15,361 bases of DNA from Clostridiaceae bacterium (GTDB taxonomy: Bacteria; Bacillota_A; Clostridia; Acetivibrionales; Acetivibrionaceae): contig JAAZCB010001225.1 in assembly GCA_012513545.1 (NCBI GenBank), positions 1 through 15,361 of the forward strand. Reading direction: 5' to 3'. Position numbers and translations under genes: made by a program. The notes under the pieces are model-generated. The model ran no database searches. It was not told where the DNA came from and worked only from the letters and a program-made list of their open reading frames with translations. Numbering within the stretch: position 1 is the stretch's first letter; every line of letters begins with the position of its first letter. Shown here one piece after another: positions 1,089 through 11,457 of this stretch.

Positions 1089-1796
1089 GTGGGTAAAGGC
1101 TCAGTTTGTAATTGTGAAAACTGTCAGCACCGGTTGTGTGTTTCAAGAGTACCTATATTTTCCGGTCTGGCTTCAGAAGAATTAAGCAAGGTTGCAGCCC
1201 TTATAGTTAAAAAGAAGTATGAAAAGGGGGAGCTGATTATTATGGAAGGAAGCTTCCCGGAAAACCTGGTCATTATAGATCAGGGTCAGGTAAAGGTTTT
1301 TCGTTATACTTCGGAAGGGAAGGAACAGATTCTGTATATATTCGCGAAGGGTGATTTTTTTGGAGAAAAGAACCTCCTGAATAACCAGGAAGCTACCTAT
1401 AACGTTGAAGCTTTAGAAGCCACTAACATCTGTATGATAAATAAAAAGGATTTTCAGAAGCTGTTGCAGGATTATCCTGAAATAGGGATTAAGATTATTG
1501 GAGAATTATGCAGCCGCATGGAGAGAATTGAGGGTGCAGTCCAAAGTATGGGTACAAAAAGCATCGAAGCGCGCATTAACAGCATTCTGATTGAATTTGC
1601 GCAAAAGTATGGGAAAAAGCACCCAGGGGGAATTCTTGTAGAGCTTCCGCTAAGCCGTGAGGGGATAGCCAATTATATAGGAGTCGCAAGAGAAACGGTA
1701 AGCAGGAAGTTAAGTGCCCTGCAAGAGGAAGGTATTATAGAGATGATTGGGAATAAAAAGGTGCTGATATTGGATATAAAAGCTATAGAGGAATAG
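1089..1796 (+). CDS. Crp/Fnr-family transcriptional regulator, FNR/HcpR type with Fe-S-like cysteines
   Basis: A 235-residue protein starting at GTG, with AGAGGTGAT (1075-1083) as ribosome binding site. An N-terminal cysteine cluster (C7, C9, C12, C17, in CNCENCQHRLC) precedes a cyclic-nucleotide-binding-type beta-roll (residues ~22-125: F..L, G..I..EG, G.VKV, GDFFGE). A dimer helix follows, then a winged HTH (~187-225) with PLSREGIANYIGVARETVSR. Spacing C9-x2-C12-x4-C17 plus internal C115 resembles the cluster ligands of E. coli FNR (C20, C23, C29, C122), so an oxygen/NO-sensitive [4Fe-4S] cluster is plausible. The recognition helix RETVSR has the Glu/Ser/Arg of FNR. The genes downstream (ric and the DUF1858 operon) carry matching boxes and are its likely targets. 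A haem-type HcpR or a cluster-free FNR relative are the alternatives. Confidence 0.85.
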   Translation: MGKGSVCNCENCQHRLCVSRVPIFSGLASEELSKVAALIVKKKYEKGELIIMEGSFPENLVIIDQGQVKVFRYTSEGKEQILYIFAKGDFFGEKNLLNNQEATYNVEALEATNICMINKKDFQKLLQDYPEIGIKIIGELCSRMERIEGAVQSMGTKSIEARINSILIEFAQKYGKKHPGGILVELPLSREGIANYIGVARETVSRKLSALQEEGIIEMIGNKKVLILDIKAIEE

Positions 1797-1903: not shown

Positions 1904-1944
1904 TATGACTTGAGTCACAGAAAATTTATTTGGCTTGCTATACA
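1904..1944 (+). promoter_or_regulatory. FNR/HcpR-type box and promoter of ric
   Basis: TATGA-CTTGAG-TCACA (1904-1919) matches 9 of 10 positions of TGTGA-N6-TCACA. A -10 candidate TATACA lies at 1939-1944 and there is no recognisable -35. The box centre (1911.5) is about 40 bp upstream of the inferred start (~1951), the position of a class II activator replacing the -35. Control by the regulator at 1089 is inferred. Confidence 0.6.
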
Positions 1945-1988
1945 ATTAGACCATAGGATAACTTATTTGCAGATTGGAGGAATATATT

Positions 1989-2690
1989 ATGAATACTATT
2001 TTTAACGGTAATCAGGCTGTAGGGGAAATTGTTGCAATGCTGCCTAAAGCCAGTGAAATTTTCAAACAATACAAGATAGATTTCTGCTGCGGAGGAGACA
2101 GAAAGCTCTCTGAAGCGGTAAAAGAGCTGAAGGTAGATGAAGGCGAAGTTTTGAAAAAGCTCAATGAAGCATTTGTTGAAAACAGCAAGGTAGGTACAGG
2201 CGGCAAGAGTTTCACAGAAATGTCCCTACATGAATTGACTCAATACATTGAGGGTACTCATCATGTTTATGTTAAAAAAGTGCTCCCTGAGCTTGGCGAG
2301 TTAACAGTAAAAATAATGAAAGTACATGGAATTAATCATGCGGTGCTTTTCAGAGTCCACAAGCTATTCTCAACTTTGAGGGCAGAACTGGAGCAGCACT
2401 TGATAATGGAAGAGGAAATCGTTTTTCCACTAATCGCAGAATATGATAAAACTTCGAGTGCCCAAAGCTTTGAGAAAGCAAAACAGGTTATAAGGCAAAC
2501 AGAGGATGAGCACGAGACAGCCGGAAACATCTTAAAAGAGCTAAGGAAAATAACAGAGGATTACAGTGTTCCCGAGGATGGGTGCAATACTTATTATATA
2601 ACCTTTAAAACTTTGGAAGAACTTGAGGCTGATTTATTCCAGCATATTCATCTGGAAAACAATATTTTGTTCAGAAAATGGAGTGATTAA
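1989..2690 (+). CDS. ric: RIC/ScdA/YtfE family di-iron protein (repair of iron centres)
   Basis: The start at ATG 1989 is set by GGAGG (1976-1980); an in-frame TTG further up lies in this ribosome binding site. The 233-residue product has an N-terminal ScdA_N domain (residues ~3-62) with the diagnostic FCCGGD (C33, C34). A hemerythrin-like four-helix domain follows, with candidate di-iron ligands H91/H92, H137, E141, H175, H219/H221 and E223 in the order known for E. coli YtfE. The family is cytoplasmic and restores iron-sulfur and non-haem iron proteins damaged by nitric oxide or oxidants. Length and domain order are normal. It is transcribed on its own or with the next operon: no terminator is visible after it, but the next genes have their own box. 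Confidence 0.92.
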   Translation: MNTIFNGNQAVGEIVAMLPKASEIFKQYKIDFCCGGDRKLSEAVKELKVDEGEVLKKLNEAFVENSKVGTGGKSFTEMSLHELTQYIEGTHHVYVKKVLPELGELTVKIMKVHGINHAVLFRVHKLFSTLRAELEQHLIMEEEIVFPLIAEYDKTSSAQSFEKAKQVIRQTEDEHETAGNILKELRKITEDYSVPEDGCNTYYITFKTLEELEADLFQHIHLENNILFRKWSD

Positions 2691-2805: not shown

Positions 2806-2848
2806 TGTGATTATAATCACAGCAATTATTTTTTTGCCAGGATAAAAT
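2806..2848 (+). promoter_or_regulatory. Perfect FNR/HcpR-type box and promoter of the DUF1858 operon
   Basis: TGTGATTATAATCACA (2806-2821) is a fully symmetric 16-bp palindrome, matching TGTGA-N6-TCACA exactly. A -10-like sequence lies at 2841-2848 (GATAAAAT), the same distance from the box centre as in the ric promoter. The class II activator layout is therefore repeated. Confidence 0.7.
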
Positions 2849-2885: not shown

Positions 2886-3074
2886 ATGAAAATAACTAAG
2901 GAAATGACTATCGGACAGGTAATAAGGGCTAATCCGCAGGCGCCACAGATTTTAATGAGTTTTGGAATGGGTTGTATCGGGTGCCCGTCATCACAGGCAG
3001 AGACAATAGAGGAAGCATCTATGGTTCATGGCATCAGTATTGACAAGCTGTTAGAGGCTTTGAATCAAGAATAA
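2886..3074 (+). CDS. DUF1858 small disulfide/metal-motif protein
   Basis: A 62-residue protein whose ATG follows a strong AAGGAGGATA (2871-2880); upstream in-frame codons are non-coding leader. It is one DUF1858 domain: KITKEMTIGQVI, AP.IL..FGMGC, then C30-x2-C33 in GCIGCPSS, ending with a helix (SIDKLLEAL). DUF1858 is structurally related to the ScdA_N domain of RIC, and its CxxC may bind a metal or do thiol chemistry; its biochemistry is not established. As first gene of a four-gene operon under a perfect FNR-type box, beside ric, it is probably part of a redox or NO response. Confidence 0.88.
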   Translation: MKITKEMTIGQVIRANPQAPQILMSFGMGCIGCPSSQAETIEEASMVHGISIDKLLEALNQE

Positions 3075-3103
3075 ACAATAAACAATAAATGGGGGTGTAC
3101 AGT

Positions 3104-3736
3104 GTGAGCTTGTTTTTAGGCAATATACATTATTGGCTTTATAATAAAATTCTATGCTTTGAAGAGCTTGAAGATCAAATTATCAAAAGTGTAAAAGAGC
3201 GGGACAAGGATATAGATGCATTGGTGAACCAAACTAATGAGCAGTTTGGCTCTCCCACAGGGGGAAAGCCTCTTGAGGAAATTATAGGCAATTCAGATAT
3301 TCACGGGCGGCTTCAAATGAAAATTGAAAGTGCAGAACTCAGGCAAGCAATGCTAATAACAGAACTATTAAAATGGAATACTGCATATAAAACTGATTTA
3401 CTGAAAATATACTCAGAGCAAGGTAAGGCAGCCGCACAGGAGTATTCAAACAAGGTGGAATCTCCGGAAGAAATATTCAAAGCTCTTAATGATTTTTTAC
3501 TCGAAGGTATGCCTTGCGACAGGGTAAATGTTATGGTCATAAACAATGATGATGAGTTTTCATGGAAGACAACCATGTGCCTGCATAAAGCTTATTGGGA
3601 TCGGGTTGGCGGTGATGTACGGAACTTCTATGATTTAAGGGAAGCATGGATTAAAGCTTTTGTTTTTGGTATCAATGACAAATATAAATATGAGAAGTCA
3701 GGGGACGGTTTGAACCGGATTGTCAAGCAACAGTGA
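3104..3736 (+). CDS. Uncharacterised protein with a duplicated IH…L..KI motif
   Basis: An in-frame ATG at 3089 has no ribosome binding site. GTG at 3104 lies 6 nt after GGGGGTG (3091-3097) and is preferred, giving 210 residues. No signal peptide or clear membrane segment is seen; the protein is mostly predicted helical and probably cytoplasmic. Residues 7-27 (NIHYWLYNKI…) and 66-86 (DIHGRLQMKI…) share I-H-x-x-L-x-x-K-I-x3-E, suggesting two related helical units. A conserved-looking C-terminal part has MCLHKAYWDRVGG (C159, H161) and could bind metal or haem, but I cannot show this. It sits in the operon between the DUF1858 and hemerythrin-like genes, 15 nt before the latter's start. I do not recognise a characterised family. 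Confidence 0.75.
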   Translation: MSLFLGNIHYWLYNKILCFEELEDQIIKSVKERDKDIDALVNQTNEQFGSPTGGKPLEEIIGNSDIHGRLQMKIESAELRQAMLITELLKWNTAYKTDLLKIYSEQGKAAAQEYSNKVESPEEIFKALNDFLLEGMPCDRVNVMVINNDDEFSWKTTMCLHKAYWDRVGGDVRNFYDLREAWIKAFVFGINDKYKYEKSGDGLNRIVKQQ

Positions 3737-3750
3737 AAAGGAGGACGCTT

Positions 3751-4308
3751 ATGAACTGTATTGAGCTAATGGTTGATGAACACAGGAATATAAAAAGAAT
3801 GCTTGCGGTTATACGCAAGTACTGTAATAGAATATTAAGCGGTGAAGTTGTTCAATATGAGGACTTTTATAAGATCCTTGATTTTATAAGGAATTATGCT
3901 GATAAACACCATCATGGAAAGGAAGAGCTTCTCCTGTTTAACAGGATGGTGGAAGAACTTGGTCCGACAGCGGAAAAGCTTGTGCGGTATGGTATGAATG
4001 TGGAGCATGACCTGGGAAGACTGCATGCTCAGGAACTTGAAGCTGCGGTAAAACTTGTACTTGAGGGGAATATGGATGCCAGGCTTGATGTTATAGCCAA
4101 TGCTGTTTCATATACTCATTTGCTCAACAGGCATATTGACAAAGAGGATGGAGTAGTCTACAAATATGCGCAAAACAACCTTTCCAAAGAGACTATTAAC
4201 AGGCTGGAGCAGGAGTGTCTCGCTTTTGAAGAAAAAGCTGCTGAAGATAAAACCCAGAGCAAGTATTTGGCATTGCTAAGTGAGCTTGAGGAGAAGCAGG
4301 AATTTTAA
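3751..4308 (+). CDS. Hemerythrin-like (HHE cation-binding) protein
   Basis: ATG 3751 follows AAAAGGAGG (3737-3744). The product has 185 residues and is nearly all alpha-helical. Candidate di-iron ligands are H11 (DEHRNI), H53-H55 with E58/E59 (DKHHHGKEE), H86 (EHDLGR), H123 and H128 with E132 (NRHIDKED). This is the H…HxxxE…H…HxxxE order of HHE-domain proteins. The family binds non-haem di-iron and takes part in oxygen, peroxide or NO handling. Unlike RIC it has no ScdA_N domain, but the separate DUF1858 protein two genes upstream carries the related module, so the operon holds the two halves of a RIC-like protein as separate genes. Third gene of the box-controlled operon. Confidence 0.85.
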   Translation: MNCIELMVDEHRNIKRMLAVIRKYCNRILSGEVVQYEDFYKILDFIRNYADKHHHGKEELLLFNRMVEELGPTAEKLVRYGMNVEHDLGRLHAQELEAAVKLVLEGNMDARLDVIANAVSYTHLLNRHIDKEDGVVYKYAQNNLSKETINRLEQECLAFEEKAAEDKTQSKYLALLSELEEKQEF

Positions 4309-4327
4309 GGAGAAAGGAGGGAGTGGT

Positions 4328-4519
4328 ATGAGAGCATGTGTAGACAAGGATTTGTGTATTGGCTGTGGCTTATGCGAAGCACTATCTCCTGCAGTGTTTA
4401 AAATGGATGATGAAGGCAAGGCAGAAGCAATCACGGAAGAATTGTCACAGGAATTGCAAAATGAAGCAGAGGAAGCTAAAAGGCAATGTCCTGTAGAAGC
4501 TATCTCAATTGAGAAATAA
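4328..4519 (+). CDS. Single [4Fe-4S] ferredoxin
   Basis: ATG 4328 follows AAGGAGAAAGGAGGGAG (4309-4323). The 63-residue protein has C10-x2-C13-x2-C16 (CIGCGLC) and C54-P near the C-terminus, the four ligands of one [4Fe-4S] cluster of the Fer4_13/Thermotoga ferredoxin type. The body between is acidic, as usual for these electron carriers. It ends the operon, with a terminator 30 nt on, so it may feed electrons to the hemerythrin-like or unknown protein. The ferredoxin-type sulfite reductase at 6257 is another possible partner. Extra C4 is not an expected ligand. Confidence 0.92.
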   Translation: MRACVDKDLCIGCGLCEALSPAVFKMDDEGKAEAITEELSQELQNEAEEAKRQCPVEAISIEK

Positions 4520-4548
4520 TTGAGACAAGACTTGGATTAATATTTCAT

Positions 4549-4591
4549 AAAAGAGAGGAACTTCAGAAGAAAGGGCCCTCTTTTCTTTGTT
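4549..4591 (+). terminator. Rho-independent terminator of the redox operon
   Basis: AAAAGAG (4549-4555) plus GG pairs with CC plus CTCTTTT (4576-4584) around a ~17-nt loop with one bulged A. A T-rich tail follows (TTTTCTTTGTTT). Confidence 0.7.
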
Positions 4592-4777
4592 TGGTCTACT
4601 CAGATATAACTTTTAGATCAGCTTTAGTGAGTGTTTATCAAAAAAATGTCCAGACAGGATTATGCTATATGGTTTATGAATAGAACCAGCTAATATTCTA
4701 TGTGGAAATGCCTTTATTCTGCTTAAAATATTAGTATCTTTAATATCTGTTATAAACAAAAATTATTTAAATTCATA

Positions 4778-4830: not shown

Positions 4831-6006
4831 ATGAAACCATATAAGATGAAGGGAAGTGGAAATGTGTTGGAATGTAGTAAAAGTACGCAGGTTGTCCACG
4901 GATTCAAAGGATATGATCAATATACAGGTGCAGTCAGTTTTCCGATTTATCAAAGTGCAACCTTCAGGCACCCGGGGTTAAACCAGACTACAGGCTATGA
5001 TTATTCAAGACTTCAAAATCCAACCAGGGAGGAGCTTGAAAATACTATGGCATTGCTTGAAAACGGCAGGCACGGTTTTGCTTTTTCGAGTGGAATGGCT
5101 GCGGTATCTGCTGTGTTAAAGCTCTTTTCTCCAAAGGATCACATTATAGTATCGGATGACTTGTATGGGGGTACATACAGGCTTTTTGAAGAAATATACA
5201 GTAAATTTGGCATTGAATTCAGTTATGTTGACACCAGCTCCTTAATAAATATTGAAAATGCCATAAAGGAAAATACGGCTGCCGTGTTTATTGAAACACC
5301 CTCAAATCCCTTGATGAAAATAACCGATATTGAGGCAGTAGTTGAACTATCAAAGTCAAACGGTATGATGACTATTGTCGACAACACATTCCTAACACCC
5401 TATTATCAAAGACCGCTTGAGCTTGGATGTGATATTGTACTGCATAGCGGAACAAAATATCTTGGAGGTCATAATGACACGCTGGCGGGTTTTGTTATAT
5501 TGTCAGAGGATGAACTGGCGGAAAAGCTCAGACTAATACAAAAGTCTGAAGGAGCAGTTCTTGCACCTTTTGACAGCTGGCTTATTTTAAGAGGTATAAA
5601 AACACTTGGAATACGGCTTGACAGGCAGCAGCAAAACGCTCTGAAAATTGCCGGTTGGCTGAAGACACATGAGAAAGTTGAAAAAGTCTATTATGCAGGG
5701 TTGCCTGATAGCCCGGGATATGAAGTGCTAAAGAAGCAGTCATCAGGTTTCGGTGCTATGATTTCAATTCATGTCAGGGATGCAAGTTTTATAGAACCAA
5801 TCCTTGAAAGAGTCAGGGTATTGATATTTGCAGAAAGCCTTGGAGGGGTGGAAAGCCTGATTACCTATCCGATTGCACAGACTCATGCTGCAATACCTGC
5901 TGAGATAAGAGACAGGTTGGGTGTCAATGATAAGCTACTTAGGATATCAGTTGGGATTGAAGATGCCGACGATATAATAAACGACCTGGAACAGGCGATG
6001 AGGTGA
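4831..6006 (+). CDS. Trans-sulfuration PLP enzyme (cystathionine gamma-synthase/lyase family)
   Basis: From ATG 4831 the product has 391 residues. This start has only a distant AGGA, and a TTG at 4867 behind AAGGGAAGTGG would give a more typical N-terminus, so the start is uncertain. Family marks are TGAVSFPIYQSATF (32-45), YDYSR phosphate-binding residues Y58/R60, SSGMAA (86-91), D184 in VDNTF, SGTKYLGGH with the PLP lysine K209, and ESLGGVESLITYPIAQTH (335-352). Such enzymes make or cleave cystathionine, or put sulfide onto an activated homoserine. The ITYP.AQTH tail is shared by Bacillus MetI and MccB, so sequence alone does not fix the reaction. Position ahead of the sulfide-making genes favours sulfide or cysteine incorporation into homocysteine. 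Its stop overlaps the start of a truncated paralogue. Confidence 0.85.
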   Translation: MKPYKMKGSGNVLECSKSTQVVHGFKGYDQYTGAVSFPIYQSATFRHPGLNQTTGYDYSRLQNPTREELENTMALLENGRHGFAFSSGMAAVSAVLKLFSPKDHIIVSDDLYGGTYRLFEEIYSKFGIEFSYVDTSSLINIENAIKENTAAVFIETPSNPLMKITDIEAVVELSKSNGMMTIVDNTFLTPYYQRPLELGCDIVLHSGTKYLGGHNDTLAGFVILSEDELAEKLRLIQKSEGAVLAPFDSWLILRGIKTLGIRLDRQQQNALKIAGWLKTHEKVEKVYYAGLPDSPGYEVLKKQSSGFGAMISIHVRDASFIEPILERVRVLIFAESLGGVESLITYPIAQTHAAIPAEIRDRLGVNDKLLRISVGIEDADDIINDLEQAMR

Positions 6007-6113
6007 TGAAATTGAAATCTGGAACCAAACTGGTACAAAATGGCAATGAAATGGATAAGTCATGGGAAGCCCTCAATGTCCCGATTTATCAGGCTTCAAA
6101 CCTAGGAATATGA
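6006..6113 (+). pseudogene. Truncated N-terminus of a second trans-sulfuration PLP enzyme
   Basis: A start ATG overlaps the upstream stop (TGATG), the mark of translational coupling. The frame reads 35 codons to TGA at 6111, including TKLVQNGNE and ALNVPIYQASN. This matches the first ~32 residues of cystathionine synthase/lyase family enzymes (compare TGAVSFPIYQSATF in the upstream gene). The remaining ~350 codons are absent. An ancestral tandem pair like the overlapping metI-metC of Bacillus, with the second gene deleted, is the likely history. Confidence 0.75.
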
Positions 6114-6127
6114 GTGTTCCAAGCATA

Positions 6128-6217
6128 TAAATCCGATTGGAATTTTAAGAATTATATTAAAGTATATATACTGGGTAAATGATGTTTGAAAACTGAGTAA
6201 ATCGATTGGAATAATAA
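6128..6217 (+). promoter_or_regulatory. Twin TAAATC(C)GATTGGAAT boxes and promoter region of the sulfite reductase gene
   Basis: Two near-identical direct boxes, TAAATCCGATTGGAATTTTAA (from 6128) and TAAATCGATTGGAATAATAA (from 6198), lie 70 bp apart. Candidate promoter elements TTAAGA (6145-6150) and TATACT (6167-6172), 16 nt spacing, lie between them; another, TTGAAA (6186-6191) with AATAAT (6210-6215), overlaps the second box. The motif resembles sites of Rrf2-type cysteine regulators such as CymR, by memory of the family only. A palindrome AGTATATATACT is at 6161-6172. Confidence 0.45.
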
Positions 6218-6256
6218 GTATTAACCTGAATATCATATATAGGGAGGAACTGGCAG

Positions 6257-7858
6257 ATGGCTTATGATAAAGTTTGGGAAAGGGACATTGAGTCCTTGAA
6301 CAACGTTGAACGGATAAAGCTAAAAAGGGATGGACTTGACGTATTGGAAACTATAGTCCGGAAGTATTCAAAACAAGGTCTTGATTCAATACCTGAGGAT
6401 GACAGGATACTGTTAAAGTGGGCAGGAATTTATGAGCAGAAGCCGAAGAATGGATCTTTTATGCTGAGAGTCCGTATTAATTCGGGTAAGCTGAAGGCAA
6501 ATCAGGCAAAAGAATTGGCAGGTATATCCAGGGAGTACGGAAAGGGTTTTCTAAGAATTTCTACAAGAGGAGCAATTCAGTTTTACAATATTAAATTGGA
6601 ACAATTGCCCGGAATTTTTAGCAGGTTGGAAAAGGTAGGCCTTGCCAGCTATGAATCCTGCGGGGATTGCCCGAGGACGGTAATTGGCAATCCCTTGGCC
6701 GGGGTTGATAAATACGAGCTAATGGATACTACTGAGTTGGTCAATCAGGTTAATGATTATTTTCTGCTTAACAGGGATTTTTCAAATCTCCCAAGAAAGT
6801 TGAAAATCTCAATCTCATCAAGTGTGGTGAATCCGGGAAACTCGGAAATAAACGATATATCCTTTACACCAGCCGTTAAAAAAGCAGATGGTAATGAGAT
6901 TATAGGATTTCACCTTAGAGTTGGAGGAGGGCTTTCAACAAGACCGATTATGGCAAAGGAGTTAGATGTATTTGTATTACCCGGGGAGGTTCTTGATGCC
7001 GCAATTGGTACAGCTAAAATTTTCAGGGATTACGGCTATAGACAAAACAGAAATCATGCGCGTCTGAAGTTTCTTGTTGACGACTGGGGAGTAGAAAAAT
7101 TCACTGAAAAATTATTTGAATATACCGGTAAATTGACGACAAGAGGGATTGACAAAACTATTGGTTGGAATAATTCATATTACTATGGTGTACACGAGCA
7201 AAAACAAGAGGGGAAATACTATATCGGAATACATGTCCCTTTGGGTGAACTGAATGCGTCTGAATTGCTCGAGCTTGCTCAAGTAAGTGAGTTATATGGT
7301 GACGGTACGTTAAGAACTACTACCAGCCAGAATATTATTGTTACAGGGATTGACAATTCAAACATTGACAAGGTTTTGAAATCGTCAGTGCTTAGTAAAT
7401 TCAGCTGTAAACCGGAAACCATACTTGCCAATATTGTGGCCTGCACCGGGTCAAGATTCTGTAACCTTTCTCTGACTGATACACAGAGTATGGCGCTTGA
7501 ACTGGCAAGTGCTATTGACGATAAATTCAAGCTCGACTTGCCAATACGGATAAGTATAACAGGATGTCCCAATTCCTGCGGTCATGTGCACATAGCCGAC
7601 ATAGGACTTAGGGCTGCACTTATAAAAACAGACTCTCAAAGAGAGGAGGCTTTTGACGTCTTTATCGGTGGAAAGCTCGGACCCGGAGCACAATTCGGCC
7701 AAAAGCTGAAAACACGTATAAGGAAAGCAGAGGCGGCTAGTTGTATAAGCAGTATTATTGAATATTACATGAAGGAACGCAGAAAAGAGGAGTTGTTTCA
7801 TGATTTTGTAAGGAGACAGGATATATCTGCATTTCAGGCACTTCTAAGCAGGAGTTGA
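6257..7858 (+). CDS. Siroheme/[4Fe-4S] sulfite (or nitrite) reductase, ferredoxin-dependent type
   Basis: ATG 6257 lies behind AGGGAGG (6241-6247); 533 residues, normal for the family. Two ferredoxin-like half domains and two siroheme domains alternate. The cluster/siroheme ligands are C396-x5-C402 (CTGSRFC) and C437-x3-C441 (CPNSC). Anion-binding basic residues are visible in STRGAIQ (R104), CPRTVIGNP (R140) and RKLKIS (K181, K183). The enzyme reduces sulfite to sulfide by six electrons; the same fold includes NirA nitrite reductases. APS reductase and ATP sulfurylase genes following directly favour sulfite. No CysJ-like flavoprotein is present, so ferredoxin is the expected donor. Expression is probably set by the twin boxes upstream. 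Confidence 0.88.
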   Translation: MAYDKVWERDIESLNNVERIKLKRDGLDVLETIVRKYSKQGLDSIPEDDRILLKWAGIYEQKPKNGSFMLRVRINSGKLKANQAKELAGISREYGKGFLRISTRGAIQFYNIKLEQLPGIFSRLEKVGLASYESCGDCPRTVIGNPLAGVDKYELMDTTELVNQVNDYFLLNRDFSNLPRKLKISISSSVVNPGNSEINDISFTPAVKKADGNEIIGFHLRVGGGLSTRPIMAKELDVFVLPGEVLDAAIGTAKIFRDYGYRQNRNHARLKFLVDDWGVEKFTEKLFEYTGKLTTRGIDKTIGWNNSYYYGVHEQKQEGKYYIGIHVPLGELNASELLELAQVSELYGDGTLRTTTSQNIIVTGIDNSNIDKVLKSSVLSKFSCKPETILANIVACTGSRFCNLSLTDTQSMALELASAIDDKFKLDLPIRISITGCPNSCGHVHIADIGLRAALIKTDSQREEAFDVFIGGKLGPGAQFGQKLKTRIRKAEAASCISSIIEYYMKERRKEELFHDFVRRQDISAFQALLSRS

Positions 7859-7989
7859 TTTCTACTTCTAGTTGTAGCTATTAAAAGGTTTAACCAATGA
7901 AAATAAGCACTATTTGCAGATTTAAAACGGTTTTGATTTGCAGTGCAGGTAAAAGAGGCATATGAAATTATACCTATGGGGGGATGAAA

Positions 7990-8715
7990 ATGGACAGGAA
8001 TGAAATTAAGCTGTTAAATGAGCAGTTTAAGGATAAAACAGCCCAGGAGATTATTGATTTTGCAATTGATAAATTCGGATTGTCAAAAATAATCCTGGCA
8101 ACCAGTCTTTCTATTGAGGATCAGGTGCTTACAGATATTTTTGTTAAAGCAAATAAAGACTGCCGTTTATTCTTTATTGATACCGGAAGACATTTTCAAA
8201 GTACTTATGATTTATTGCAAAATACAGCAGAGCTATATAATGTCAGCTTTGAAATTTATGCACCCGACAATAAAGATCTAGAGGTAATGGTTCATGAACA
8301 CGGTCCGAACTTGTTTTACGAAAGCATCGACCTTAGGAAAAAATGCTGTGAGATAAGGAAGGTTATACCGCTAAAGAGAGTGTTGAAAACGGTGGATGCC
8401 TGGGTATGCGGACTTAGGAGGGAACAATCACCCACAAGGGATGAACTTAATGTTTTTGAGTGGGACGCCGGCAATGAAATCATGAAGGTCAATCCCTTAG
8501 CCTTTTGGGATGAACAGAAGGTCTGGGAATACATAAAAAAAGAAAACATTCCTTATAACAGGTTATACAAGGAGAATTTCAGAAGTATCGGCTGCCAGCC
8601 CTGTACGAGGGCTGTAAAGGACGGTGAGAATGTCAGGGACGGCAGATGGTGGTGGGAAAATCCCGACAGGAAGGAATGCGGACTGCACACAGGTAAGAGG
8701 AACACAACAGCTTAA
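7990..8715 (+). CDS. cysH: Assimilatory adenylyl-sulfate (APS) reductase, CysH family
   Basis: Two ATGs are in frame; the second (7990) has GGGGGG (7978-7983) at a proper 6-nt distance, the first has none, so 7990 is chosen (241 residues). The PP-loop-type nucleotide site begins ATSLSIED, with FFIDTGRHF (61-69) following. Cluster cysteines C119-C120 (KKCCEIRK) and C202-x2-C205 (GCQPC) mark the [4Fe-4S] form that uses APS rather than PAPS. The catalytic cysteine C230 lies in KECGLH near the C-terminus. The reaction is APS plus thiol (thioredoxin) to sulfite and AMP. The gene is 131 nt after sulfite reductase, and that gap (7859-7989) has no terminator, only an imperfect palindrome at 7862-7877, so co-transcription is likely. 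Confidence 0.93.
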   Translation: MDRNEIKLLNEQFKDKTAQEIIDFAIDKFGLSKIILATSLSIEDQVLTDIFVKANKDCRLFFIDTGRHFQSTYDLLQNTAELYNVSFEIYAPDNKDLEVMVHEHGPNLFYESIDLRKKCCEIRKVIPLKRVLKTVDAWVCGLRREQSPTRDELNVFEWDAGNEIMKVNPLAFWDEQKVWEYIKKENIPYNRLYKENFRSIGCQPCTRAVKDGENVRDGRWWWENPDRKECGLHTGKRNTTA

Positions 8716-8777
8716 GGCATCAGGGATTAATAGTGGTAATGTATCCGTAAGGATTAAAAGGGATGGAGGATGGTAGA

Positions 8778-9659
8778 ATGAATCATTTGGATAAACTTGA
8801 GGCGCAAAGTGTATACATACTGAGGGAAGCATACAGGGAGTTTAAGAATTTATGCATGCTCTGGTCTATCGGCAAGGACAGCACTGTACTTTTATGGCTT
8901 GCCAGAAAAGCATTTTTCGGACATGTACCTATTCCGTTGGTGCATATAGACACACATTTCAAAATACCTGAAATGATAAGCTACCGGGATGATCTGGCAT
9001 TAAAGTGGAGACTTACAATGATATATGGAGAAAACACCGGGGCATTAAAAGAGAAGAAGACCTTTCCAGATGGAAAAGCAGACCGGCTGACCTGCTGCCA
9101 GGCTTTGAAATCCGAGGCTTTAAAAAACACTTTGTCGGGAGAATGGCCAAGGTTTGTAATGGATCACGAGAAAAAGGAATATGTGAAGGATTCAAAGCAG
9201 GAAAAGTATACAGGGGTCATTGTGGGCGTAAGAGCGGATGAAGAAGGAAGTCGTTCAAAGGAGAGATATTTTTCGCCAAGAGACAAGGAGAATGACTGGG
9301 ATGTAGGAGATCAGCCCCCGGAATTCTGGAATCAGTTTAAAACTGATTTTGCACCGGGAACCCATGTCAGGATTCATCCTTTACTTGACTGGACTGAGCT
9401 TAATATCTGGGAGTATATAGAAAGAGAAGATATACCGATTACCTCATTGTATTTTGACCATGGAGACGGAAAACGATACAGATCTTTGGGGTGCTACCCG
9501 TGTACATCACCGGTGGAATCTACGGCAAAAAATGTCAAGGAGATAATAGAAGAGTTGAGAAGCGGTAAATTTGCAAATATTGCCGAAAGGTCAGGCAGGG
9601 CACAGGACAAGGATGATGGAGGAGGTCTTGAAACACTTCGCAAAGGGGGGTATATGTAA
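8778..9659 (+). CDS. cysD: Sulfate adenylyltransferase subunit 2
   Basis: GGAGG (8765-8769) is 8 nt before ATG 8778, which is preferred over the in-frame ATG at 8763; 293 residues, close to the family length. The PP-loop SIGKDST (30-36) binds ATP, and further family marks are [11 protein letters not shown] (56-66), [20 protein letters not shown] (150-169), [20 protein letters not shown] and the typical end [20 protein letters not shown]. It joins sulfate to ATP forming APS, driven by GTP hydrolysis in CysN. The next gene starts one base after its stop. Confidence 0.96.
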
Positions 9660-9660
9660 T

Positions 9661-11457
9661 ATGGAAGCAAGAGAGCAGATGAATATTGTTATTGTAGGAC
9701 ATGTAGATCACGGAAAAAGCACTGTTATTGGCAGATTGCTGGCTGATACAGGGTCTTTGCCGGAGGGAAAGCTTGAGTCAGTCAAGGAGTATTGCAAAAA
9801 AAACTCCAAGCCTTTTGAGTATGCCTTTCTTCTGGATGCCCTTAAGGATGAACAGGCTCAGGGTATTACAATTGATACTGCAAGGTGCTTTTTTAAGACC
9901 CGCAAAAGGGATTACATAATCATTGATGCTCCAGGGCATATTGAATTCCTTAAAAACATGGTTACCGGAGCATCCAGAGCTGAAGCGGCGCTTCTTGTAA
10001 TTGATGCAAAGGAAGGTATACAGGAAAATTCCAAAAGGCACGGACACATTGTTTCAATGCTTGGTATAAAGCAGGTTGTAGTGCTGGTTAATAAAATGGA
10101 TATTGTGGATTTTGACAGGGATGTATTCTGTAGAATTAAAGCAGAATTTACTGAGTTTCTTGGCAAAATAAACATCCAGCCTTTGGAGTTCATACCTATC
10201 AGTGCTTTTCATGGAGACAACATTGCCCAAAAATCGGATAACACCATTTGGTATGATGGACTAACCGTACTTGAGCAGCTGGATGCATTCAAAAATAAAA
10301 AGAGCATAGCCGAGCAGGTTTTCCGCATGCCTGTCCAGGACATTTACAAATTTACAAAAGAAGGTGATACCAGAAGGATTGTTGCAGGGACAATCACTGG
10401 AGGAAGCATTAGCAGAGGTGATGAGGTAATTTTTTTACCTTCGCACAAAAAGTCTGTTGTCGAAAGCATTGAGGGCTTCAACGTCAGTACAAGGGATACG
10501 GCTTATGCTGACGAGGCAATCGGGGTTACACTGAACACTCAGATTTATATAAAACCCGGAGAGCTGATGGTTAAGGCAAATGAGAAGCTTCCATTTGTCA
10601 GTTCAAGGTTCAAAGCGAATGTTTTTTGGGTCGGTAAATCGCCACTAACCAAGAACAGGAATTACAAGTTGAAAATTGGCACAATGAGAGTAGGTGTAAA
10701 GCTTGTAGAGGTATTAAGCATTATTGATGCTGCGGAATTGAATGTCAATACCTTTAAGGATCAGGTAGAACGCCATGATGTTTCAGAGTGTATTTTTGAG
10801 ACACTAAAGCCTGTAGCCTTTGATTTGATATCAGAGTTTGAACAGTCAGCGAGGTTTGTGATTGTTGATAATTATGATATTTCCGGAGGGGGTATTATTC
10901 TTGAAAGTTTGCCCGATATAGAAAACAGCTTGAAGGAACACATCAGAAAAAGAGAATTCCTTTGGGAAAAGAGTTTGATTACACAAGAGCAAAGGAAGGA
11001 AGTGTATGGGCATAAATCCAAGTTCATTGTTCTTACTTCGGGAAGCGATAGCGCTCAGAACATTATACAGGATATTGGAAGGGGACTTGAAAAAAGACTA
11101 TTTGAAATGAAATACAAAGCGTACTATCTTGGCGTTTCGAGTCTTGCTTCAGGGCTTGCAGAAGAAGCAAGCATTGAACTTGAAAGCAGGTATGAGTATA
11201 TAAGGCAGATTGGTGAACTGGCAAGAATATTCACCGACTCGGGTCAGATATTAATTACATCTGTCTATAATATTGACGATTATGAGGCAGAGTTGCTTAA
11301 ACTTCTTAATCAACCTAACGATATCCTGATAATTAATATCGAAGAATCCCCATTTGTTAATTTTGTGCCTGATGCCAGCATAAAAATTGATAATGCTGTA
11401 GATGCAGTATGCAGTATTCTTGCAAAACAGAGTATTATTCTTGATTACTATATTTAG
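9661..11457 (+). CDS. cysN: Sulfate adenylyltransferase subunit 1 (CysN) fused to a degenerate APS-kinase-like domain
   Basis: ATG 9661 follows GGGGGG (9645-9650); 598 residues. Residues 1-~425 are CysN: GTPase motifs GHVDHGKS (13-20), DAPGH (89-93) and NKMD (144-147), then two EF-Tu-like beta barrels. Residues ~430-598 align with the APS kinase part of CysNC ([21 protein letters not shown], then [14 protein letters not shown]…LEKRLF…YKAYYLG, …[21 protein letters not shown]…). The Walker A expected as G-x4-GK[ST] reads SGSDSAQN, and the DGDN.R, FS..DR and KGLY motifs are missing. This domain is therefore very unlikely to phosphorylate APS. The APS reductase nearby makes PAPS unnecessary. A retained structural or allosteric role is inference, by analogy with the inactive kinase-like domain of fungal ATP sulfurylase. 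Confidence 0.93.

Follow-up and report, generated by a model that had tools for sequence, protein, structure and literature searches.

What is the function of a four-gene operon that adjoins ric, the gene of the iron-centre repair protein RIC, in a Clostridiaceae bacterium? The operon (positions 2886-4519) lies on contig JAAZCB010001225.1 of assembly GCA_012513545.1, of which we analysed 15,361 nucleotides (hereafter the window). It encodes a DUF1858 protein, a 210-aa protein without a Pfam or NCBIfam match, a hemerythrin-like protein and a ferredoxin. Most of what is known about nitric oxide (NO) survival in strict anaerobes concerns Hcp, flavodiiron proteins and RIC. The genes and the box in front of them, a gene pair conserved in other genomes, control sites in relatives, the ligand positions of the hemerythrin-like protein and the fold group of the 210-aa protein indicate that the operon is probably a nitric-oxide (nitrosative) stress module working beside RIC.

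We collected three samples of 21, 40 and 40 copies of the 210-aa gene (101 in total). The gene was found in 23 of 398 genomes of a phylum sample, one of them false, in 42 of 391 genomes of the class and in 115 of 194 genomes of the order of G647, where 40 of 108 new genomes were taken in and 68 left out. A chemotaxis receptor in G387 (L024/L046), a false match, was left out of the counts, and G006 and G082 (broken or partial), G435 and G551 were left out of the flank counts. In 58 of the 101 copies (5/21, 22/40 and 31/40), a hemerythrin-like gene lay on the same strand at a distance of no more than 300 bp; by identity to the window protein, this was the case for 23/27 copies at 45% or more, 26/46 at 35-45% and 9/28 below 35%. 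DUF1858 was present within 1 kb in 25 copies. The homologues thus do keep company with DUF1858 and hemerythrin-like genes, as the first-pass annotation of this DNA had proposed, but more loosely. Over 391 genomes, both families were present together in 29, compared to 6.0 expected (210-aa family in 42, hemerythrin-like family in 56 at E 1e-25). Within 3 kb, we observed a hybrid-cluster protein (HCP) gene in 9/101 copies, all nine products beginning like hybrid-cluster proteins, an FNR-type regulator in 9/101 and RIC in 3/101. Twenty hemerythrin-like genes apart from the 210-aa gene, hand-picked and 16 of them from genomes without it, had HCP within two genes in six cases (all six above the NCBIfam hybrid-cluster-protein cut-off), DUF1858 in six and RIC in two. 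These varied neighbourhoods suggest that the parts of the operon recombine within an NO-related set.

Other proteins were also seen at such loci. Two of the six HCP just mentioned, those of L226 (3634-5469) and L230 (1172-3013), carry a C-terminal DUF1858-type (TIGR03980) domain, and their genes lie between FNR-type regulator and hemerythrin-like genes. A DUF438-hemerythrin-PAS protein (L084:9004-10221) is encoded near ric, a regulator and a DUF1858-unknown-hemerythrin set, in which the middle gene is that of the 210-aa protein. A cupin-type gene and a ferredoxin gene directly precede the 210-aa gene in L103 and L104 (Pfam cupin match in L103), and a similar gene directly follows it in L042.

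Control sites found in numerous relatives point to NO as the inducer of the operon. While scanning for the TGTGA box of the window, we spotted TGTAACnnnnGTTACA upstream of many relatives; because it matches the motif GTAACn4GTTAC published in PMC1274295, we assigned it as the HcpR2 motif. In a first set, perfect sites were present at 14 of 61 copies compared to 4 of 357 control upstream regions (p 9e-10), and sites with at most one mismatch at 19/61 copies compared to 7/357 controls. The second set consisted of 40 genomes of one order, picked before their sequences were seen. A perfect site was found in 21 of the 40 compared to 5/141 control genes (p 3e-12), and when one mismatch was allowed the counts rose to 36 of the 40 and 10/141 (p 2e-24); these HcpR2 statistics ignore kinship, and the order had supplied nine loci to the first set. 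The coordinates showed that the five perfect control matches belong to genes divergent from the unit that share its upstream region, and three other palindromes occurred in 0, 0 and 1 of the 40 genomes. Perfect HcpR2 sites were also present within 300 bp of four of the 20 hemerythrin-like genes described above, and the gene order in L219 is HCP, a perfect HcpR2 site, hemerythrin-like, DUF1858 and ferredoxin. In C. difficile, hcp and frdX are activated by HcpR in response to NO, and cells become more sensitive to NO when one or the other is knocked down (PMC12915319). The genes down-regulated in a Bradyrhizobium nnrR mutant include one for DUF1858 (PMC6710368). Hemerythrin-like genes have already been published in general terms as members of the HcpR regulon, and the available part of that paper does not mention the 210-aa protein (PMC1274295).

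Three observations weigh against an NO stress module. No hemerythrin-like, DUF1858, RIC, HCP, nitrite/sulfite-reductase-like, ferredoxin or FNR-type regulator gene was nearby in 28 of the 101 copies; ferredoxin was a rare partner, within 1 kb in 2/101; and all four operon genes were found together in 0/101 copies, the exact order of the window not recurring. The 28 copies without any tested partner would fit a general thiol or iron homeostasis module in which NO control is one input of several, as would the selenoprotein forms of DUF1858 with CxxU (PMC9312934). We regard such a module as improbable in view of the HcpR2 sites with at most one mismatch at 36/40 second-set loci. The positive genomes in the order of G371 (1/19) and in the family of G620 (0/14) added little for the neighbourhood of the window itself.

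The same flanks bear on a different partnership, in which the 210-aa protein would serve siroheme nitrite/sulfite reductases in maturation or electron transfer and would be tied to the hemerythrin-like protein only secondarily. A reductase-like gene lies within 1 kb in 6/101 copies, compared to the 58/101 with a hemerythrin-like neighbour. Small siroheme-type reductases with a C-terminal DUF1858 domain are encoded directly upstream of the 210-aa gene in L033 (6565-7641) and L038 (8412-9446), and the window itself has a reductase-like gene (6257-7858). However, the latter belongs to a separate sulfur-assimilation cluster that is also found in L233, from the family in which none of 14 genomes has the 210-aa gene, and we consider the siroheme partnership very unlikely. 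The cluster (4831-11457) contains a Cys/Met PLP enzyme, the siroheme reductase, CysH, and CysD- and CysN-like genes, the last two named by eye. The sulfur genes recur in L233 (G620), where the cysN-like gene has a hemerythrin-like neighbour and the 210-aa gene is absent. The gene next to that of the 210-aa protein in L036 (8540-10888) encodes a fusion of TusA with nitrite/sulfite reductase domains (782 aa).

We compared the hemerythrin-like protein with RIC at the metal site. In an alignment of five hemerythrin-like and three RIC proteins, the RIC ligand positions corresponded to H11, H54-x3-E58, E85-H86 and H128-x3-E132. The di-iron ligands of E. coli YtfE are H84, H129, E133, H160, H204 and E208 (PMC9268430). 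The residues of the three aligned RIC proteins match H11, H54, E58, H86, H128 and E132, with the YtfE numbering taken from the literature and YtfE itself outside the alignment. H54, H55, E58, E59, E85, H86, H128 and E132 were invariant in 25 hemerythrin-like members, and H11 was lost in one. Since the ligand positions align with RIC and are conserved in these members, the protein is RIC-like at its metal site. Classical O2-carrying hemerythrin has a seven-ligand site ending in Asp, whereas the final ligand pair here is H128-x3-E132 in 25/25 members. A search of the Protein Data Bank (PDB) with the hemerythrin-like profile returned nothing at E 0.01. The similarity of DUF1858 to ScdA_N was weak, with E 0.013 for the window protein and 6.7e-6 for a relative. 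The two modules, which RIC (TIGR03652) carries in one chain, are encoded by separate genes at 2886-3074 and 3751-4308, and the order RIC-DUF1858-hemerythrin was found in L213 and L214. By these sequence features, 'split RIC' is a fair label for the operon. Because an intact ric is adjacent, the operon is no replacement for RIC. The function of RIC has been argued to be iron donation (PMC9268430) or, alternatively, reduction of nitrite to NO (PMC9052748), and either may apply to the stand-alone hemerythrin-like protein.

In the window, a perfect HcpR-type site lies in the promoter region of the operon. The TGTGA-N6-TCACA box named in the first-pass annotation is indeed present there (2806-2821), but it is CRP/HcpR-like instead of FNR-type; the HcpR consensus is wTGTGAnnnnnnTCACAw (PMC1274295). 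Two boxes with at most one mismatch occur in the window, compared to 0.51 expected, and as 20 of 200 shuffles also gave at least two, the count by itself is weak evidence. Their placement is the stronger argument: the ric and operon boxes are equally spaced from -10-like hexamers, each box starting (1904 and 2806) 37 bp upstream of a hexamer that fits at five of six positions (read by eye). Both boxes would then be centred near -41.5 relative to the start of transcription, a usual position for CRP/FNR-type activators. The adjacent regulator (1089-1796) has N-terminal Cys 7, 9, 12 and 17 as well as Cys 115, and its recognition helix reads ARETVSR. Residues R180 and E181 have been linked to G3 and A6, two bases of the TGTGA site (PMC1274295). 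The R-E-x3-R of the regulator matches these residues, so box and regulator agree, and the regulator may well control the operon. Among the relatives, the TGTGA box was perfect in 0/101 copies and had one mismatch in 5/61 (first set) and 0/40 (second set); extending the scan 10 bp into the gene gave a single perfect box, in L107.

The N-terminal cysteines of the regulator are FNR-like, which would fit O2 instead of NO as signal and substrate, the di-iron protein scavenging or sensing O2 under a [4Fe-4S] FNR-type regulator. Some HHE proteins are O2 carriers, and in L001 the opposite-strand gene downstream of the pair reads like a superoxide reductase (named by eye). However, the HcpR2 sites and the HCP and RIC neighbours speak against O2, as do ligand positions of the RIC type and not the O2-carrier type. 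Furthermore, a C. difficile hcpR mutant is sensitive to reactive nitrogen species but not to oxygen species (PMC12915319). A role in O2 handling is therefore unlikely.

The 210-aa protein had 343 relatives by single-sequence search and 2300 by profile search. Among the best 120 matches of each, all but one (P0131) were named as hypothetical or as uncharacterized proteins, and the organisms given were Clostridia and their relatives. The residues H9 (101/101), H67 (99/102), E78 (99/102), R80 (97/102), C138 (100/102), D139 (101/102) and H161 (97/102) were kept. Residue 69 (3308-3310) is Arg in the window protein and Trp in 98/102 relatives, within a conserved IHGWLQ. Two confident structure models were obtained, and 49 of the 50 structural matches listed for the first (the remaining one being a designed protein) and 50 of 50 for the second fell in the V4R/H-NOX/TRAPP group, to which we presumed a few of the titles to belong. 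V4R, H-NOX, TRAPP/Bet3, the MopR/PoxR/DmpR sensors, YslB and BcsD form one fold group. In five profile comparisons, V4R was matched at E 1.3e-4 over 123 columns by a broader profile (A5) and at E 0.015 by a narrow one (A2), ATC_hydrolase at E 0.27 and 0.12, and the hemerythrin-like family, as a control, at E 0.47. The 210-aa protein is thus predicted to belong to the V4R/H-NOX/TRAPP fold group.

Matches to named families were few. A V4R (PF02830) Pfam match was absent from the window protein and 38 divergent members (among the 13 families that these match), and from 106 close members among the matches listed, which cover 25 of 45 families; the weak Pfam matches of these close members were scattered, with a best E of 0.0048 among the same matches, and those to NCBIfam likewise. 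ATC_hydrolase (PF14196) was matched by 5/38 divergent relatives (best E 4.4e-6), and with the profile comparisons above it was not adopted as the nearest family. H-NOX proteins are marked by a heme motif, YxSxR, and by a proximal His that precedes the first strand; the motif occurred in 0/102 family sequences, and no column between 95 and 135 had His in more than 10/102. Sequence searches of the PDB with the protein and its profile gave chance matches only, and a single-sequence query of viral contigs gave no relative. We found no earlier naming of the family or the operon in the literature searched, which excluded most subscription journals. It is conceivable, if rather doubtful, that the protein represents a new NO receptor or processor of the H-NOX fold, with its own His/Cys metal or heme site, controlling or serving the stand-alone RIC-type di-iron protein as an unnamed NO sensor-effector pair of anaerobes.

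In the NO stress module that we propose, ric and the operon would be induced jointly, either by the CRP/FNR-family regulator encoded next to ric or by a relative of the HcpR type. The hemerythrin-like protein, with its predicted RIC-type di-iron site, would perform the chemistry, reacting with NO or nitrite or donating iron to damaged centres, and DUF1858 would provide a redox-active CxxC in the position held by ScdA_N in RIC. The conserved His/Cys/Asp/Glu set of the V4R/H-NOX-like domain may hold a metal, cofactor or small ligand, making the 210-aa protein a possible partner or sensor of the di-iron protein, and the ferredoxin could be an optional electron donor in this organism. The first-pass annotation had read the operon as a split, ferredoxin-driven relative of RIC, possibly for iron repair or NO/O2 handling. 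The split is borne out by the ligand positions, the weak DUF1858-ScdA_N similarity and the gene order in L213 and L214, and the handling of NO by the HcpR2-type sites and HCP neighbours; 'ferredoxin-driven' is weakly supported, since ferredoxin accompanies 2/101 copies and none has all four genes. With the operon, many Clostridia would have one more conserved unit for NO survival, and the fold group predicted for its unnamed protein family also holds H-NOX, the classical NO receptor domain. It offers a direct way to test the RIC domains apart, and some thousands of 'hypothetical' proteins gain a first hypothesis.

The features of the locus are listed in Table 1. As first described, the four genes are closely packed next to ric, all in the same direction with gaps of 29, 14 and 19 bp. 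A strong ribosome site had been claimed for each; GGAGG-type sites precede the DUF1858, hemerythrin-like and ferredoxin genes, but the site of the 210-aa gene, GGGGGTG, is weaker; the gene starts at a GTG, which is backed by the conserved N-terminus across its family. The terminator claimed behind the operon corresponds to a hairpin that is weak and was absent from a simple terminator scan downstream of the ferredoxin gene. An Rfam scan at gathering scores gave no match. The protein encoded at 70-897 of the window has a long tail of Lys-Asp-Glu repeats; its HYR-like match is weak, with a score of 18 bits that falls short of the cut-off.

Table 1. Genes and predicted control elements of the ric-operon region, in window coordinates
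Feature	Position	Strand	Basis or remark
CRP/FNR-family regulator gene	1089..1796	+	Pfam cNMP_binding 85.4 bits, HTH_Crp_2 62.2 bits
TGTGA-N6-TCACA-like box, one mismatch, upstream of ric	1904..1919	+	
-10-like hexamer TACAAT, ric side	1941..1946	+	Read from sequence by eye
ric, intact: ScdA_N + hemerythrin-like iron-centre repair protein	1989..2690	+	TIGR03652 251.3 bits, cut-off 204.7
Perfect TGTGA-N6-TCACA box TGTGATTATAATCACA, HcpR/CRP type	2806..2821	+	Upstream of operon
-10-like hexamer TAAAAT, operon side	2843..2848	+	Putative; read from sequence
DUF1858 gene (hcp-associated redox disulfide domain), GCIGC motif	2886..3074	+	PF08984 81 bits (cut-off 32.2), TIGR03980 97.1 bits
Gene for 210-aa protein, predicted V4R/H-NOX/TRAPP-like fold	3104..3736	+	Conserved H9, H67, E78, R80, C138, D139, H161
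Hemerythrin-like gene, RIC-type di-iron ligand positions	3751..4308	+	PF01814 Hemerythrin 59.6 bits; alignments
Ferredoxin gene, 63 aa, single [4Fe-4S]	4328..4519	+	Fer4_13 62.7 bits
Possible weak terminator hairpin	~4549..4584	+	Fold of 4520-4610, z-score -0.59

Among the known systems closest to the operon is RIC/YtfE/ScdA. The hemerythrin-like protein has the same di-iron ligand positions, DUF1858 is weakly like ScdA_N, and the operon adjoins ric, whose box is equally placed. In contrast to RIC, the operon has these modules as separate proteins, accompanied by a V4R-like protein and a ferredoxin, and its DUF1858 has C-x-x-C where the RIC of this window has C-C. The 210-aa family differs from the other members of the V4R/H-NOX/TRAPP group in having its own conserved residue set, and ATC_hydrolase is matched by some of its divergent relatives but not by the window protein. 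The operon resembles the HcpR regulon (Hcp, FrdX and others) in its control sites: the box in the window agrees with the HcpR consensus as published, and HcpR2 sites precede most relatives of the unit in one order.
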